Shown here piece after piece: positions 8,512 through 61,448 of a DNA stretch of 64,000 nucleotides (its first letter is position 1; every line of letters begins with the position of its first letter). The stretch lies in assembly GCA_947175265.1 (NCBI GenBank), contig CAMWMD010000004.1:1-64000 (forward strand), read 5' to 3'. Below the pieces are notes generated by a model, which searched no databases, was not told the DNA's origin, and saw only the letters and a program-made list of their open reading frames with translations. The translations under genes were made by a program, and so were the position numbers. Source of the DNA: an uncultured Porphyromonadaceae bacterium. Lineage in GTDB: Bacteria > Bacteroidota > Bacteroidia > Bacteroidales > Muribaculaceae.

Positions 8512-10476
8512 ATGCGACTCCCCGCTCTCCCGCTCCTCCTCACTCTCCTAATTTTCACTGCATGCAATTCCCCTAAATTGTCGAAGGCTGACGAGGCTTT
8601 CGGCCGCGGGGAGTTTTTCGAGGCTCAGAAGATATATAAGAAGGTCTACAACAAACTTAGCGGAAAGGCCGACCGCCCTCTGCGCGGTGAGGTGGCCTAT
8701 AAACAGGGACTCTGCTACGAGAGGCTCAACATGGCCTCGAATGCCTCCAAGGCTTTCCAGAACGCACGCCGCTACGATTATCCCGACTCCGTGCTGTATC
8801 TCCGTCTCGGAAAGGCCCTGCAGGGGGAGGGGCAGTATGCAAAGGCTATAGAGGCTTACGAGACATACCTCTCTTTCGACCCTGACAACGCTCTGGCAAT
8901 GGAGGGCATAAACGGTTGCAGGAGCGCGATTGCGGCCAAAGATAAACCCCGCACGAGATATGTCGTGAAGAAGGCGCCACTCTTCAATTCCCCGAGGGCC
9001 GATTATTCACCCATGTTTCTTGACAAGAATCTCGACCAACTCTACTTCACCACAAACCGTGAGAAGGCTACCGGCACCTCTCACTCCGAGATTACGGGTA
9101 TGAAGCGCGGCGACATTTATGTGAGCCGGAAGGATGAGCAGGGAAGGTGGAGACAGCCCGAGGCCGTGGAGGGGGGGTTAAACACCGATGCCGATGAGGG
9201 TATAATAAGTTTCTCCCCCGACGGGCAGACTATGTATCTCACAAGGGCGAGGAAGAGCGACGTGAGCGACACAAGCGTGGAGATCTTCACCTCCCGCCGA
9301 AGCGACGCATCCTGGAGTGAGCCTCAGAAATTCGAGATTACGGCCGATACACTGTCTACTTTCGGCCATCCCGCCGTCTCCCCTGACGGCACATACCTTT
9401 ATTTCACGAGCGATATGCCGGGTGGATTCGGCGGTCACGACATCTGGAGGATTAATCTTAAGGAGCGGGGGGGTAGTCTGGAGAACCTCGGCCCTCAGAT
9501 AAACACTGCCGGCGATGAGATGTTCCCCTATTCCCGCACTGATTCCCTCCTCTATTTCTCCTCCAACGGCCATCCCGGGTTTGGCGGCCTCGACCTCTTC
9601 AAGGCGAAACTCAATACTACCGGCGACTACTGGAGCGTGGAGAATATGGGGCTTCCTATCAACAGCAAGGGCGACGATTTCGGTATCACTTTCGGCGTGG
9701 GTGAGAACGGCTTCCTTAGTTCCAACCGCGATGACGGCCGCGGACGCGACCATATCTACAGTTTTGAACTTCCGGACATCCATATCACCATCTCCGGATA
9801 TGTGGTGGATAAAGACGACGAACCGGTGCCGAACGCCATAATTAGGATTGTCGGCGATGACGGCAGCAATCAGAAAGAGGTCTCGAGAGACGACGGTTCT
9901 TTCCGCTTCAATCTCGACCGCGGGGTGAGATATGTCATGAAGGCGGGTGCTACAGGCTACCTGAATCAGAAACAGGAGTTCACAAGCGACAGCGCGGAGG
10001 AGGATGCCGACTATGGAATTGACTTTATACTCGCAGCGGTCAATAAGCCTCAGGTGATTGAGAATATATTCTATGATTTCGACAAGGCAACTTTACGTCC
10101 CCAATCGAAAGCCGCGCTCGACGAACTCGCCGCGCTGATGCGCGAGAATCCTCACGTCACAATAGAACTTGGCGCACATACCGACCGCAAGGGGAGCGAC
10201 GAGTACAACATGGCCTTATCCGAAAGGCGTGCGCAAAGTGTGATTGACTACCTCATAGCCGCCGGTATTGAGACCGACCGCCTGAGTCCGAAAGGGTATG
10301 GTGAGAGTGTACCCAAGACAGTGACAAAGCGCATCAACAAGGAATTTCCGCAATTTGAGGAAGGCACCATCCTAACCGAGGAATTCATCTCCACCCTCTC
10401 ACCCGAAGATCAGGAAGCCGCCGACCAAATAAACCGCCGCACGGAATTCCGGGTCCTCAGCCTCGAATACTTCTAA
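8512..10476 (+). CDS. TPR / PD40 WD40-like propeller / carboxypeptidase-regulatory-like / OmpA multidomain lipoprotein (PorE-like architecture)
   Basis: Lipobox LIFTAC; TPR (YLRLGKALQGEGQYAKAIEAYETYLSFDPDNA); PD40 repeats (ISFSPDGQTMYLTRA, AVSPDGTYLYFTSD, LYFSSNGHPGFGGLDLF); ISGYVVDKDDEPVPNAIIRI; OmpA motif IELGAHTDRKGSDEYNMALSERRAQSV. Confidence 0.9.
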   Translation: MRLPALPLLLTLLIFTACNSPKLSKADEAFGRGEFFEAQKIYKKVYNKLSGKADRPLRGEVAYKQGLCYERLNMASNASKAFQNARRYDYPDSVLYLRLGKALQGEGQYAKAIEAYETYLSFDPDNALAMEGINGCRSAIAAKDKPRTRYVVKKAPLFNSPRADYSPMFLDKNLDQLYFTTNREKATGTSHSEITGMKRGDIYVSRKDEQGRWRQPEAVEGGLNTDADEGIISFSPDGQTMYLTRARKSDVSDTSVEIFTSRRSDASWSEPQKFEITADTLSTFGHPAVSPDGTYLYFTSDMPGGFGGHDIWRINLKERGGSLENLGPQINTAGDEMFPYSRTDSLLYFSSNGHPGFGGLDLFKAKLNTTGDYWSVENMGLPINSKGDDFGITFGVGENGFLSSNRDDGRGRDHIYSFELPDIHITISGYVVDKDDEPVPNAIIRIVGDDGSNQKEVSRDDGSFRFNLDRGVRYVMKAGATGYLNQKQEFTSDSAEEDADYGIDFILAAVNKPQVIENIFYDFDKATLRPQSKAALDELAALMRENPHVTIELGAHTDRKGSDEYNMALSERRAQSVIDYLIAAGIETDRLSPKGYGESVPKTVTKRINKEFPQFEEGTILTEEFISTLSPEDQEAADQINRRTEFRVLSLEYF

Positions 10477-10546
10477 ATTTGAAAATTGAAAATTTAAATT
10501 TGAAAATTGAAATTTGAAAATTCAATTTGAAGCTGAAGTTGAAAAC
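10477..10546 (+). repeat. AT-type degenerate heptamer array (TTGAAAA units)
   Basis: TTGAAAA TTGAAAA TTTAAAT TTGAAAA TTGAAAT TTGAAAA TTCAATT..., starting immediately after the TAA stop at 10474-10476. Confidence 0.85.
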
Positions 10547-10561
10547 TAATCCCCAATACCC

Positions 10562-10750
10562 CGCGCCTCGCGCCTACCGCCTAACGCCTAACGCCTAATG
10601 CCTCGCGCCTAACGCCTTGAGCCTAACGCCTCGCGCCTTGAGCCTTGAGCCTTCCACCTACCGCCTAATGCCCAACGCCTCGAGCCTCGAGCCTAATGCC
10701 TAATGCCTAACGCCTAACGCCTCGAGCCTCGAACCTTGAGCCTTGAGCCT
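10562..10750 (+). repeat. GC-type heptamer array, 27 uninterrupted units, consensus NNNGCCT
   Basis: 27 x 7 = 189 nt in strict phase; NNN drawn mostly from AAC, AAT, CGC, CGA, TGA, ACC; GCCT core altered in only 3 units. Confidence 0.95.
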
Positions 10751-10818: not shown

Positions 10819-10899
10819 TAATTTTGCAGTGAGTTTTTCATGGTATTAGATTTTAAGGTTAACACAAGATTGGTTGTCGGGATGACAATCAATTTTTTT
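10819..10899 (+). ncRNA. candidate sRNA, copy A of a three-member family (includes -7 box)
   Basis: TAATTTTG (10819-10826), GTTTTTCATGGTATTAGATTTTAAGGTT, hairpin TTGGTTGTC-GGGAT-GACAATCAA, T9 tract. Lies between a + gene end and a convergent gene. Confidence 0.7.
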
Positions 10900-11000
10900 T
10901 TGCACCTAAATCTACTTGATTTCCACGAAATAAAGCCGGGAGGAAACGGAAATTCCGCTTCCTCCCGACTTTAATTTTTGGTATTATGCGAATGGCTTTA

Positions 11001-12314
11001 TTAGAAGATCTCCGCGAAAATCTTCTCCGTCGCTCCTATCTTCTCCTTTATATACTCTCCTGCCCAGCGTCCTCGCTTCTCCCTCTCCTTTACATCGTAA
11101 AGAAGTTTGTCGGCATTACGCGAGAAACTGTCGGAGCCTGTCACCTCTATACCTCCTCCTAAGGTCTTCAATTCCTGAGCCTCGATAAACTTGGAGTTCT
11201 CCGGGCCGAATATCACCGGAATACCATAGACGGCCGCCTCATTGATATTATGGATGCTAACCCCGAAACCGCCTCCCACATAGGCCACATCCGCGTAAGC
11301 ATACGCGCTCGACAACAGTCCGAAGCAATCCATTATCAATATTCTCTTCCCCTCTCCCGCAGCGGGATTCTCCTTAAGCTCGCTCATGAGCACGGCCTCT
11401 CCGGGAAACATATCCTTCAGACGCCGAAGCCTGTCGGCATCAAACTCGTGGGGGGCTATCACGCCCTTCACATCCTTGTGTGCCCTGAGCCAGTCGCCAT
11501 AAACTATCTCATCGGCCTCCCAACTGCTCCCGAACATGATGACCATCGGTGCCCTCCCCTCGGATCCCCTCTTCCCGACGAACCTCTCCAGTTCGGGTAT
11601 CTCGCGGCAGGTAGCCATTATGTCGGTCACACGGTCAAAGCGTGTGTCACCGGCAACCTCGGCATTAACCACCCCGATACCTTTGAGCAATTCGAGGCTT
11701 CGCTCATCCTGAACGAATATACGAGTGTACCATCGGAGCCAATGCCCGTACCAGGCCGAACGCTTCTTGAAGAAGAACTGATCCGGCCTGAACACCGCAC
11801 TGATAAGATATACCGGAATCTGACGCCTCCACAATTCATGGAGATAATTGCGCCAGAACTCATATTTCACGAATACCGCCATCTCCGGATTCACCTTATA
11901 CAGGAATTTCCTCACCCTCGCAGGGGTGTCAAACGGAAGATAGCATACACAGTCGGCTCCCTTGTAATCTTTCCTCACCTCGTAACCCGAAGGGGAGAAA
12001 AAGGTGAGCAGTACCTTATATTCCGGCCGCTCCCGCTTGATTTTCTCTATCAAAGGGCGACCCTGCTCAAATTCTCCAAGGGAGGCTGCATGAACCCAGA
12101 TATAACGGTCGTCCGGATTTATGCACTCATCAAGACGCTTCCATATCTCCTTCTGTCCCTCATCAAGTTTCCTTGCCTTCGGGTTCTTTATACCCGCTAC
12201 CTTGACGCCACAACGGTAGGCGGCGATGCCGGCTGTATATAGCGGCATCTCCACCATCTGTCTGACCCCCTCCGCGAGCAGTCCGCGTACCTCCCCGAGC
12301 GACGGTATCTTCAT
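11001..12314 (-). CDS. waaA: 3-deoxy-D-manno-octulosonic-acid (KDO) transferase
   Basis: [59 protein letters not shown]. Confidence 0.95.
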
Positions 12315-18741: not shown

Positions 18742-18790
18742 AGGCTCTAGGCTCTAGGCTCAAGGCCCGAGGCTTTAGGCTTTAGGCGCA
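18742..18790 (-). repeat. GC-type heptamer array, 7 units AGGCNNN (reverse complement NNNGCCT)
   Basis: AGGCTCT AGGCTCT AGGCTCA AGGCCCG AGGCTTT AGGCTTT AGGCGCA; preceded by AGAGCC-GCAA-GGCTCT hairpin starting 2 nt after the stop codon. Confidence 0.9.
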
Positions 18791-18794
18791 AAGC

Positions 18795-18832
18795 CATATA
18801 AGATTCATAAGACTCATAAGATTCATAAGAGA
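18795..18832. repeat. 9-nt tandem repeat CATAAGAYT
   Basis: catataagatt cataagact cataagatt cataagaga. Confidence 0.8.
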
Positions 18833-18836
18833 TGCA

Positions 18837-18864
18837 AAAAGGGCGCGAATAATCGCGCCCTTTT
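18837..18864. terminator. bidirectional intrinsic terminator
   Basis: AAAAGGGCGCGA-ATAA-TCGCGCCCTTTT between convergent genes. Confidence 0.85.
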
Positions 18865-18873
18865 CTATCACCT

Positions 18874-18958
18874 GTCACCTTGAGCCTTGAGCCTCGGGCC
18901 TTGAGCCTAACGCCTCGAGCCTTGAGCCTCGCGCCTCGAGCCTAACGCCTAAACGCCT
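18874..18958 (+). repeat. GC-type heptamer array, 10 perfect NNNGCCT units plus degenerate ends
   Basis: TGAGCCT TGAGCCT CGGGCCT TGAGCCT AACGCCT CGAGCCT TGAGCCT CGCGCCT CGAGCCT AACGCCT (18881-18950); abuts the stop codon of the HIT gene. Confidence 0.92.
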
Positions 18959-31071: not shown

Positions 31072-31253
31072 TTCAGAAATTGAAAAGCAAAATCTGAAAA
31101 TTGAAAATTATGATTGCCCGCAGCGATTATAATTTTCAATTTTCATTTTATTTGTTCATCTTCCGTTCACATCCCGGGTTGGAGAACTGATAATTCCGGT
31201 TTCCGTATGCGGTTATAATTCTCAATTTTCATCTTTCAATTCTCAATTCATTA
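31072..31253. repeat. AT-type heptamer region: TTGAAAA units after the stop, TTTTCAA/TTCTCAA units before the cysS start, plus 17-bp inverted repeat
   Basis: ATTGAAA AGCAAAA TCTGAAA ATTGAAA; IR TGAAAATTGAAAATTAT (31095-31111) / ATAATTTTCAATTTTCA (31129-31145); TTCTCAA TTTTCAT CTTTCAA TTCTCAA TTCATTA (31219-31253). Confidence 0.85.
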
Positions 31254-31256
31254 AGC

Positions 31257-32723
31257 ATGCTTACCCTCTACAATTCTCTGACACGCTTCAAGCAACCTTT
31301 CAAACCGATTCACGAAGGACACGTCGGCATGTATGTGTGCGGCCCCACCGTCTACGGCGATGCACATCTGGGACACGCCCGACCTGCCATAACTTTTGAC
31401 GTGCTCTTCCGTTATCTCCGCCATCTGGGGTATAAGGTAAGATACGTAAGGAATATCACGGATGTGGGGCATCTGGAGCATGATGCCGATTCCGGCGAAG
31501 ATAAGATTGCCAAGAAGGCTCGCCTCGAGCAACTCGAACCTATGGAGGTGGTGCAGTTCTATCTTAACCGCTATCATCATGACATGGAGGCGCTCAATGT
31601 GCTCCCCCCGAGCATAGAGCCTCACGCTTCAGGGCATATCATAGAGCAGATAGAGTATATCAAGAAGATTCTCGAGGCCGGCTATGCTTACGAAAGTTGC
31701 GGCTCCGTGTATTTTGATGTGGAGAAATATAACCGCGACCACAATTATGGAAAACTTTCAGGCCGTAATATCGAGGACATGCTCTCCACAACACGTGCCC
31801 TTGACGGTCAGGAGGAGAAACGCAATCCCCTCGACTTCGCCCTCTGGAAGAAGGCCGCTCCCGAACACATAATGCACTGGCCTTCCCCGTGGAGCGAAGG
31901 ATTTCCCGGCTGGCATCTCGAATGCTCTACAATGGGACAGAAATATCTCGGTGAGAAATTCGACATCCACGGTGGCGGACTCGATCTCCTTTTCCCTCAT
32001 CATGAATGTGAGATTGCGCAGAGCGTCGCAGCTCAGGGACATGAGACGGTGAACTACTGGGTACACAACAACATGATCACTATCGAAGGGAAGAAGATGG
32101 GTAAGAGTTACAACAACTTCATCACTCTGGAGCAATTCTTCGACGGCTCCCATCCTCTCCTTGAGAAGGCTTATTCTCCGATGGTGATACGTTTCTTCAT
32201 CCTTCAGGCGCAATACCGCTCTACCGTAGATTTCTCGAATGCTGCCCTTCAGGCTGCCGAGAAAGCCCTCCAGAAGATTTCGGAAAGTTATCGCAGACTT
32301 CAGAATCTTGTTCCGGCCGCAAAATCAAGCATCGAGGTGCCTGATTTCATGAAGGCTTGTGAAGAGGCTATGGATGATGATCTCAACACTCCCCAGGTGA
32401 TAGCCCAACTGTTCGAGGCTTGCAAGGTGATAAACTCGGCTGCCGACGGCAGTGTGTCGCTCTCGGATGAGGATATCGACAGGCTAAAGAAGACCTTCGA
32501 CATTTATCTGATCGACATTCTCGGCATGAGGATTGCCGACGATACCGACAATTCGACGGCTACAAAGGCCTACGAAGGCGCGGTGGACCTCCTCATGGAG
32601 ATTCGTGGCAACGCAAAAGCGGCTAAAGACTGGACCACCTCCGACCTTATCCGCGATAAACTCGCTGCCCTCGGCTTCAATATAAAGGATACCAAAAATG
32701 GTGTTGAATGGAGTGTGAAATAA
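31257..32723 (+). CDS. cysS: cysteine--tRNA ligase
   Basis: [70 protein letters not shown]. Confidence 0.97.
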
Positions 32724-45694: not shown

Positions 45695-45715
45695 CCCCAC
45701 TCACGGTCATTTAGC

Positions 45716-45750
45716 ATCTCATGTTTCATATTTCATATTTCAACTCTAAA
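45716..45750. repeat. short AT-type heptamer run ahead of uppP
   Basis: ATCTCAT GTTTCAT ATTTCAT ATTTCAA CTCTAAA in strict 7-nt phase. Confidence 0.7.
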
Positions 45751-45752
45751 GA

Positions 45753-46586
45753 ATGGAATGGTTAGACGCCCTCATTCTGGGCATAGTGCAGGGATTGGCG
45801 GAGTATCTGCCGATAAGTTCAAGCGGACATCTGGAAATTTTCCGCGAAATATTAGGTATCGACCTCCCTTCAGACAAAATATTGCAGTTTGACCTCATAG
45901 TTCATGCGGCTACCGTATGCTCCACAATAGTTGTGCTTTGGCCCATGTTCAAGAAATTGTGCATAAGTTTCTTCGGATTCAAGATGGACAGTGATTTCTT
46001 TTACGTCTGCAAGATTCTCCTCTCATGTATCCCTATCGGCATCGTGGGTGTGTTTTTCAAGGATACCGTTGAACAGTTCTTCGGCAACGGCCTAACGGTG
46101 GTGGGTGTCTGCCTTATCGTGACAGCACTGCTCCTGTCGTTCGCCCATTTCACCGGCAAAAGGGAGAACGCACCGGGTATGGTGAGCGCAAACCGTGGCC
46201 GCGACATAACCTGGCTTGATGCCTTTGTGATAGGTTGCGCGCAGGCTGTGGCAGTGCTGCCCGGTCTGAGCCGCAGCGGTACCACCATCGCCACCGGTAT
46301 ATTGATAGGCGACAAACGTGATAAGGTGGCAAGTTTCTCTTTCCTCATGGTCATAATCCCCATTCTTGGAGAGGCTCTGCTTGACCTTAAGGATATGCTG
46401 ACCGACCCGGCAGCCCAGGGTGATAACGCTGTCGGTGCGATCGCCCTCATCATTGGTTTCCTCTCCTCTTTTATAGTAGGCTGCTGTGCATGCAAATGGA
46501 TGCTCCACCTTGTAAAGAAAGGGAAACTTATCTGGTTTGCCGTATACTGTGTGGCAATGGGTACAATCTGCTTATTGTGGCCTTGA
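45753..46586 (+). CDS. uppP: undecaprenyl-diphosphatase
   Basis: GIVQGLAEYLPISSSGHLEI, LPGLSRSGTTIATGI. Confidence 0.96.
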   Translation: MEWLDALILGIVQGLAEYLPISSSGHLEIFREILGIDLPSDKILQFDLIVHAATVCSTIVVLWPMFKKLCISFFGFKMDSDFFYVCKILLSCIPIGIVGVFFKDTVEQFFGNGLTVVGVCLIVTALLLSFAHFTGKRENAPGMVSANRGRDITWLDAFVIGCAQAVAVLPGLSRSGTTIATGILIGDKRDKVASFSFLMVIIPILGEALLDLKDMLTDPAAQGDNAVGAIALIIGFLSSFIVGCCACKWMLHLVKKGKLIWFAVYCVAMGTICLLWP

Positions 46587-48779: not shown

Positions 48780-48851
48780 CAGCGTGTTTTTCATGGTATT
48801 AGATTTAAGGTTAGAGGAATAGTTGTCGAGAGACAATTACTCCTTTTTTTT
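48780..48851 (+). ncRNA. candidate sRNA, copy B of the three-member family
   Basis: GTGTTTTTCATGGTATTAGATTTAAGGTTA, hairpin AGTTGTC-GAGA-GACAATT, CC(T)8; lies between convergent queA and recO. Confidence 0.75.
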
Positions 48852-48911
48852 ATTGCCCTGTACGAATCAATTTATAGCATTACCTTTCGGATAAATGGAT
48901 TTGCAGTTTGC

Positions 48912-59954: not shown

Positions 59955-61220
59955 TTATAGAGAAAGCAGGAACTTTGACAATGGCACTACATTTATGGGG
60001 AGTTCAGGGGTGGTTATCACCCTTTCCTCCGAAAATGTCACGATATCCGCACGGTTCAACCCATACTTCTTGTGGAATGTCAGCAATGCCCTTACCTCCC
60101 TTTCCTCCGTAGCGGAATCGGCAAGTGAATAGCAAGCCTGAATACCTATCTTGAGCGCGGGAAGATAAAAATCAAGTTCCACCTCCTTATTATAGAAATA
60201 AGGCTTATAGTCTTCATCCTGAAAACTTTTTCTATGTAGACTCACAGCACACAGATTTTCCAGAAGAGTGGTCTCACTGTCTGTCAGAAAAATATTCAGG
60301 AGTCCATTGTCAATGAAATAATGTTTCCTTATTGTAGTACGTTCTACAAACTTAGAGGCAAAATTTTCTAAAGAGAACAAAAGACAAGCCTCTTTACAAT
60401 ATTCGATATAGGAAGATACCGATGCCACATTCGTAGATATGCCCGTTGCCTTAACCATTGCGGTCAATCTTGTCAAGGATGTGGGATTCTTAATATTTTC
60501 AGCGAGTCTCCGGAGTGACAGTTTCAAAGCCATTTCATTCTTAATGGAATTTCGCTGAATGATATCTCCAAGTATGATCTTATCATATAACTCATTTAGC
60601 CAATGGCGTTTGTTGACAAATAAAATCAACTCAGGGAACCCACCCCATAAAAGATAATTCTTTAACCATCTCTCCACCTCCCCTCTTTTTGCTCCATACA
60701 TCCAATTATGATCTATCTCGCATCCGTTGGCCTTGAGATATTCGGGGAAAGAATAAGGCCACACCATAACTTTGAGGTATCTCCCACCAAGAGTTGTTGC
60801 AATTTCCTTACTCAACATTTTTGCATTGCTGCCGGTCAAGTAAACTTCATATTTCTGATTCGCCAACCGTCTGGCAAAATGTTCCCACCCCTCGACATTC
60901 TGAATCTCATCAAGAAACAAAATCGGCCGGTAATCAAATAAAGATGAGTAAGCCTTCAGAATGTCGTCTAATTCGGATGCCTTATACCCTATCAATCGTT
61001 CATCATCAAAATTTATGAAAACCATCTCCCTGATGTCATGCCCCTCCTTTATAAGTTGCAGAGCCCGTATATACATCAGGTATGATTTTCCACACTGGCG
61101 CACGCCTACCAACACATAGCGTGCGTGTGGCTCAAATTCAAAATTCCTGCTGACAGGTGAAACCATCCTCAATATCTCCTGCCCCTCTATTATTATGTTC
61201 TTTAATATTTCCGGATTCAT
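59955..61220 (-). CDS. AAA ATPase with C-terminal DUF4143
   Basis: YVLVGVRQCGKSYLMYIRA P-loop, PILFLDEIQNVEGWEHFARRLANQKYEVYLTGSNAKML, C-term YFIDNGLLNIFL...EVELDFYLPALKIGIQACYSL. Confidence 0.93.
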   Translation of the reverse strand: MNPEILKNIIIEGQEILRMVSPVSRNFEFEPHARYVLVGVRQCGKSYLMYIRALQLIKEGHDIREMVFINFDDERLIGYKASELDDILKAYSSLFDYRPILFLDEIQNVEGWEHFARRLANQKYEVYLTGSNAKMLSKEIATTLGGRYLKVMVWPYSFPEYLKANGCEIDHNWMYGAKRGEVERWLKNYLLWGGFPELILFVNKRHWLNELYDKIILGDIIQRNSIKNEMALKLSLRRLAENIKNPTSLTRLTAMVKATGISTNVASVSSYIEYCKEACLLFSLENFASKFVERTTIRKHYFIDNGLLNIFLTDSETTLLENLCAVSLHRKSFQDEDYKPYFYNKEVELDFYLPALKIGIQACYSLADSATEEREVRALLTFHKKYGLNRADIVTFSEERVITTPELPINVVPLSKFLLSL

Positions 61221-61225
61221 GATAT

Positions 61226-61253
61226 TTGAAAATTGAGATTTGAGACTCGTGAT
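61226..61253 (-). repeat. short AT-type heptamer run in the AAA gene leader
   Basis: TTGAAAA TTGAGAT TTGAGAC TCGTGAT, 7-nt phased, immediately 5' of the start codon. Confidence 0.6.
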
Positions 61254-61318
61254 TAGTATGTACCGACTTTGAGTCGAATACTCCGTATCCCGTATCTTCC
61301 CTTCTCATATTTGATATG

Positions 61319-61353
61319 CAAAAATAATCATTTATTTATTGCCAGTAAACAAA
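61319..61353 (-). promoter_or_regulatory. promoter of AAA/DUF4143 gene, TTTG-N23-TATTTTTG
   Basis: Plus strand CAAAAATA (61319-61326); CAAA (61350-61353) lies inside palindrome copy 1. Spacing is longer than usual. Confidence 0.5.
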
Positions 61354-61420
61354 TTTAACCATTTTTGTTTATTGCCAATAAACAAATTCAGTCATTTTTG
61401 TTTATTGACAGTAAACAAAT
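61329..61420. repeat. three tandem palindromic sites (31 and 33 nt spacing)
   Basis: ATTTATTTATTGcCAGTAAACAAAT; TTTGTTTATTGcCAATAAACAAA (perfect 11+1+11); TTTGTTTATTGaCAGTAAACAAA. Confidence 0.9.
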
Positions 61421-61448
61421 GAATCTATTTTGCGATGATGAACGTAAA

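Follow-up and report, generated by a model that had tools for sequence, protein, structure and literature searches.

Bacteria have an excess of heptameric repeats, for which the literature found gives no settled origin or function. In Xanthomonas, Rehm et al. (2015, PMC4692102) describe GGGAATC heptads of the form (GGGANTN)n, with 70 and 75 convergent inverted pairs per genome. Their G-rich strand runs downstream in sense or upstream in antisense, and they lie near or overlap stop codons. Long repeats at a given gene are not conserved in related species, and no regulatory role was found (PMC4692102). The GGGGA(C/T)T heptads of Nostoc are described there as forming few inverted pairs only (PMC4692102). 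TAACTGA heptamers are known from Beggiatoaceae, cyanobacteria, and some Bacteroidetes (MacGregor 2015, PMC4679880). These have an exact motif, are direct with one inverted case, and are found mostly just upstream of start codons. The same study describes mixed heptamer assemblages in Bacteroidetes gaps, which are missing from close relatives and in which contigs end (MacGregor 2015, PMC4679880). A named heptad family of Bacteroidota was not found in the literature searched.

The window analyzed here (the whole stretch of 64,000 nucleotides) contains an array at 10562–10750 (+ strand) that is also picked up by TRF. It is 189 nt long and reads as 27 heptads of the form NNNGCCT without a single indel, so the preliminary description was right to call it real and phase-locked. 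The GCCT core is intact in 24 units, ACCT in two, and GCCC in one. The restricted triplet vocabulary also holds, with seven triplets in use (AAC 7, TGA 5, CGC 4, AAT 4, CGA 4, ACC 2, and a single TCC). Two degenerate units, AATCCCC and AATACCC, immediately precede the array. The view that it is non-coding is likewise right. CRISPR repeats of about 21–50 nt with unique spacers of like length are not seen in this array, which has a period of 7 nt and no spacers, as had been stated. It also lacks the G+C-rich hairpin and downstream T run of intrinsic terminators, and is not built of the exact TAACTGA unit upstream of starts. We read the array, with a probability of roughly three in four, as a single arm belonging to a family of inverted heptad repeats that is intergenic and lineage-specific.

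The left neighbor is a porE-type gene (8512–10476, + strand; T9SS_PorE NF052230, 924.9 bits) with OmpA, PD40, and TPR domains. Directly past its stop lies an AT-rich period-7 run (10475–10531, + strand; TTTGAAAATTGAAA). This sequence repeat is the left-arm counterpart in the intergenic region of the array, and the GCCT arm is not complementary to it. To the right, the functional element is a FopS small RNA (10831–10902, + strand; RF04319, 78.5 bits), followed by a convergent waaA-type Kdo transferase gene (11001–12314, − strand; PF04413). The array is a lone right arm, with porE on one side and the FopS sRNA on the other. Folded as RNA, this single arm gives a weak structure (z −2.5) and has no strong hairpin of its own. 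The FopS RNA and its promoter-like upstream region are conserved beside waaA at three further loci (L038, L042, and L058), and a second member of the RF04319 family is present at 48784–48852 of the window. More degenerate AT-rich period-7 runs of the TTTCAAT/TTTCATA type are observed in the gaps at 31126–31261, 45701–45761, and 61201–61265. A 33-bp tandem repeat of about three copies (TTTGTTTATTGCCAGTAAACAAATTCAACCATT) lies at 61331–61431.

The array is not alone in its genome, that of a gut bacterium of the Bacteroidales with Muribaculaceae as its nearest records. The pattern (GCCTNNN)3GCCT has 163 + 111 = 274 matches in the 3.25-Mb assembly and its reversed form, used as the control, has none, which excludes chance as the source of the heptad arrays. 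BLAST with the 10562–10750 array against its own genome returned 55 matches (E below 0.01 for 52), and the genome carries about 50 GCCTNNN arrays of 3 to 27 units. The idea that the array might be a one-off product of slippage, found once and in no relatives, can thus be set aside. The arrays sit between genes, sRNAs, tRNAs, and terminators, with the consensus AGGC-N-Y-D on one strand and GCCT-H-R-N on the other. Read as AGGCNNN, 407 of 437 units have C or T at the second variable base, and one of 437 has C at the third. Among 72 congeners, the pattern is abundant in a few (482 matches in G027, 66 in G052, 27 in G021) and has zero matches in most. A genome from another family of the same order (G094) has 177 matches, and at least one match is present in 33 of 397 genomes across the phylum. 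Other Bacteroidota genomes carry other cores, such as TCCGNNN with 322 matches in G266 and 295 in G425. The G266 arrays (L323–L331) mix TCCGTAA, TCCGTCC, and TCCGTAC units, once more combining a constant core with a small set of triplets. The array counts come from whole-genome searches, and the contexts from 1.23 Mb of sampled sequence plus the array neighborhoods. The own genome is a 95-contig draft in which gene calls are crude ORFs, and one genome per species was compared. Seventeen of the 52 BLAST matches are 250 nt or less from contig ends, so arrays and their partner arms are partly cut by the assembly. The heptad arrays explain many of its contig breaks.

The orientation of the arrays is strict. 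Of 46 arrays near one gene edge, drawn from the own genome, G027, G052, G021, and G094, 42 follow the rule of AGGC at the left edge and GCCT at the right (P = 5e-9), regardless of gene direction. Facing arrays less than 400 nt apart are ordered AGGC then GCCT in 16:0 cases from four genomes. A sister species (G120) gives 5:1, with two of the five on near-duplicate contigs. All facing pairs combined amount to 21 against one reverse, and that one, in G120, spans a tRNA-Tyr gene and really represents two gaps. In the sister species, a tRNA-Tyr gene is flanked on each side by one inverted heptad pair (L271, 4827–5405). For other cores, in four further genomes and at other loci, the order is G-rich then C-rich in 9:0. 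The AGGC strand therefore reads outward from gene edges, and a two-armed gap is a large inverted repeat. A general purine or GC-skew polarity is weak in array-free gaps. Inverted pairing and edge orientation, like the TAG enrichment and shared spacers reported below, go beyond the preliminary description, and most of them need other loci to be seen.

The anatomy of a pair is illustrated at 18742–18950, between convergent genes. The left arm (18742–18787, − strand) has seven AGGCNNN units and starts 10 nt past the TAG stop of a + strand gene. The right arm (18884–18950, + strand) has 10 NNNGCCT units and ends 6 nt short of the end, also TAG, of a − strand gene. Within the left arm is a period-9 repeat (18788–18841, + strand; ATAAGATTC, also ending in T), which recurs at L240 and L255. 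At all three loci, the period-9 repeats (18798–18830 in the window) lie within the heptad arms and, like them, form an inverted arrangement about the terminator. The apex is a terminator-like palindrome (18841–18860; GGGCGCGAATAATCGCGCCC) common to L240 and L255. A G+C-rich hairpin with a T run, as expected of an intrinsic terminator, is present in the apex palindromes of these three pairs only.

The preliminary description held that the aperiodic mixture of units spoke against ordinary slippage, and it proposed that the randomness of their order be tested. The order is non-random, through local duplication. Identical neighbors number eight in the 10562–10750 array against 3.7 in shuffled order (P = 0.018). 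Across 60 arrays of the own genome, the fraction of identical adjacent units is 0.334 against 0.243 in shuffles, a value reached in 0 of 1000. Units are also more alike in vocabulary within arrays (0.22) than genome-wide (0.135) in this genome. Neighbor duplication and this likeness are together the signature of slippage, which had been rejected too soon. The signature is non-significant in small samples of G027, G052, G021, and G094, and block duplications of two to four units show no excess over shuffles.

The slippage signature would also fit plain neutral heptameric simple sequence repeats, produced by polymerase slippage and tolerated in gaps only, with seeds such as terminator arms setting their orientation and with neither dispersal nor function. 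The majority of arrays are single, many unrelated heptads occur across the phylum, and the main period of unrelated gap repeats is also 7 (12 against 0 in shuffled sequence), with period 9 second (4 against 0). Lag-7 periodicity as a general property of all gaps was rejected; there are discrete arrays only. Against this explanation, the recurrence of a single core at about 50 sites, the composite arms, the strict orientation, and the common spacers are unexpected from independent slippage. With heptads masked, the array gaps of one genome retain common segments, a few of the shared pairs being genic duplicates, and control gaps share 0, 0, 2, 0, and 0 pairs. A cassette running from GGGCGCGA to TCGCGCCC is common to three gaps of the own genome, the element CTCCTGTTCTCCTGT is present in around eleven of its array gaps, and GGGGAAGTTGGGGACAACTTCCC is found at five sites in G027. 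An inner dispersed CTCCTG element (CTCCTGTTCTCCTGTnnnCTCCTGTC) has 12 genome copies and is inverted. Its copies are on G000 contigs C5, C20, C50, C52, C57, C58, C77, C88, and C93, with heptad arms alongside in all examined (C93 excluded). In the sampled 1.23 Mb, 6/6 matches to the CTCCTG element adjoin heptads, at two places on one contig. We regard a purely neutral origin as possible but less likely than not.

Arrays abut the ends of genes. Those facing a gene 3′ end lie −16 to 13 nt from it, apart from one at 30. The distances peak at −2 and −9, and arrays sit further off most start codons than off 3′ ends. The stop is TAG in 25 of 43 genes that end in an array, compared to 68 of 855 sampled genes, the latter being crude ORFs from the own genome alone (P = 1.4e-15). 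In two ortholog pairs, the native end is replaced by the array (G052 L199 near 6318 and G027 L188 near 18403). The first of these, read by eye, ends in LKFKYKESRGSRP before the stop instead of LKFKYAAKRK. The stop position is unaltered in other ortholog pairs, and in one pair both species have TAG (own C6 100262, G052 L199 7157). Alternatively, arrays could begin at pre-existing TAG stops.

Paired arms are predicted to form very stable hairpins around terminators. The 18742–18950 pair, folded as RNA, has an energy of −114.4 kcal mol−1 (z −9.5), and other pairs give z −13.4 (L255) and z −14.3 (L197). Together with the terminator at the apex and the closeness of the arms to stop codons, this would fit a selected RNA element, in which the arms would form a hairpin that protects 3′ ends or blocks read-through from both sides. 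Convergent gaps are also frequent among array gaps (18/53) compared to gaps of 60 nt or more (85/478). However, a single arm of this core is present in 40 of 53 grouped array gaps, and a hairpin is thus not obligatory. The 10562–10750 array itself folds weakly, the family is rapidly gained or lost between sisters, and the triplets of the arms are not mirror-paired. Facing arms show mirrored unit order no more often than expected by chance (24 against 22.9). For want of an overall excess, hairpin-templated copying from arm to arm was therefore rejected, with one suggestive pair (L197, p 0.09). A selected RNA function appears doubtful.

The family is gained and lost between sister species. In G120 (locus L038), the Kdo transferase is 85% and PorE 90% identical, and the gene order porE, FopS, waaA is kept. 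The site corresponding to 10562–10750 is empty, with the array absent. The sister has the family elsewhere (95 matches of a three-core pattern). A manual count of alignable orthologous gaps gave an array in one species only in 14, this locus included, and in both species in four. Empty sites, dispersed spacer cassettes, patchy distribution, and inverted arms are features of a non-autonomous mobile element of the MITE or REP type, in which the heptad arms would be terminal inverted repeats. With filled and empty sites placed side by side, from species that are too diverged for a firm reading, no fixed ends or junctions and no target-site duplication are apparent by eye. Most gaps are one-armed, and IS200-like Y1_Tnp is unassociated with the arrays. 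A RAYT/REP transposase was rejected as a candidate, as Y1_Tnp was not found in the array-rich G027 and G120 and is present in the array-free G008, G028, and G071. We consider a mobile element of this type rather improbable. The notion of an information-bearing code or guide array, suggested by the exact frame and small vocabulary ("a code of few symbols"), can be practically dismissed, since neighbor statistics rule out a code-like order, local duplications and turnover between species run against it, the vocabulary is common to all sites, and no associated machinery was seen.

In our preferred reading, that of an inverted heptad-repeat family, the arms bear the imprint of local slippage-type duplication in steps of 7 nt. 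Cassettes of arm, inner repeat, and terminator would be copied to further sites by recombination, conversion, or an enzyme acting in trans. An enzyme for this spread was not found here, nor was a transposase candidate. In RNA, facing arms would form a long hairpin enclosing the terminator, stabilizing 3′ ends or insulating neighbors. Much of the heptad family may be nearly neutral satellite DNA. As a tentative extension, which we think rather unlikely, the arrays would belong to an undescribed class of dispersed composite palindromes in Bacteroidota with self-expanding heptad termini, which grow by 7 nt, are copied as cassettes into new gaps in a fixed orientation set by gene edges, and overwrite gene ends with TAG stops of their own. 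The general process would be shared with Xanthomonas, with lineage-specific heptads and a polarity that quadruplexes do not explain. The empty sites in sister species make the start, the spread, and the gene-end rewriting of heptad repeats testable.

Several known systems share part of this architecture. The cyanobacterial STRR heptamers, an apt comparison in the preliminary description, and the Nostoc GGGGA(C/T)T repeats have in common with the present arrays a 7-nt unit and a dispersed, intergenic distribution, but their cores differ. The heptamer assemblages of Bacteroidetes (MacGregor) are alike in gap location, absence from relatives, and contig breaks. REP/BIME palindromes and MITEs are also dispersed intergenic inverted repeats near genes, whereas the arms here are tandem heptads instead of fixed short palindromes, and there is no matching transposase. 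The Xanthomonas GGGAATC repeats are alike in the 7-nt unit, the fixed core with variable positions, the intergenic location, the convergent inverted pairs, the G-rich strand directed outward from ORFs, the closeness to or overlap with stop codons, and the lack of long repeats kept at equivalent genes in related species. They differ from the AGGC/GCCT family of Bacteroidota, in which arms are linked with further dispersed repeats and with terminator palindromes and TAG is enriched at gene ends; such an enrichment is not reported in the parts of the Xanthomonas study drawn on here (PMC4692102). The G3 tracts and the preference for about four units described there are not found either, as AGGC has GG only and array lengths span 3 to 27 units. 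A core without a G3 tract does not allow a classical three-tier quadruplex, and the AGGC/GCCT arrays thus resemble the GGGAATC kind without being members of that family. We read them as Xanthomonas-type heptad repeats in a new form that is composite and quadruplex-free. That the same pairing and polarity occur in a phylum so distant from Xanthomonas, on cores devoid of G3 tracts, speaks against the G-quadruplex as the cause of this architecture.
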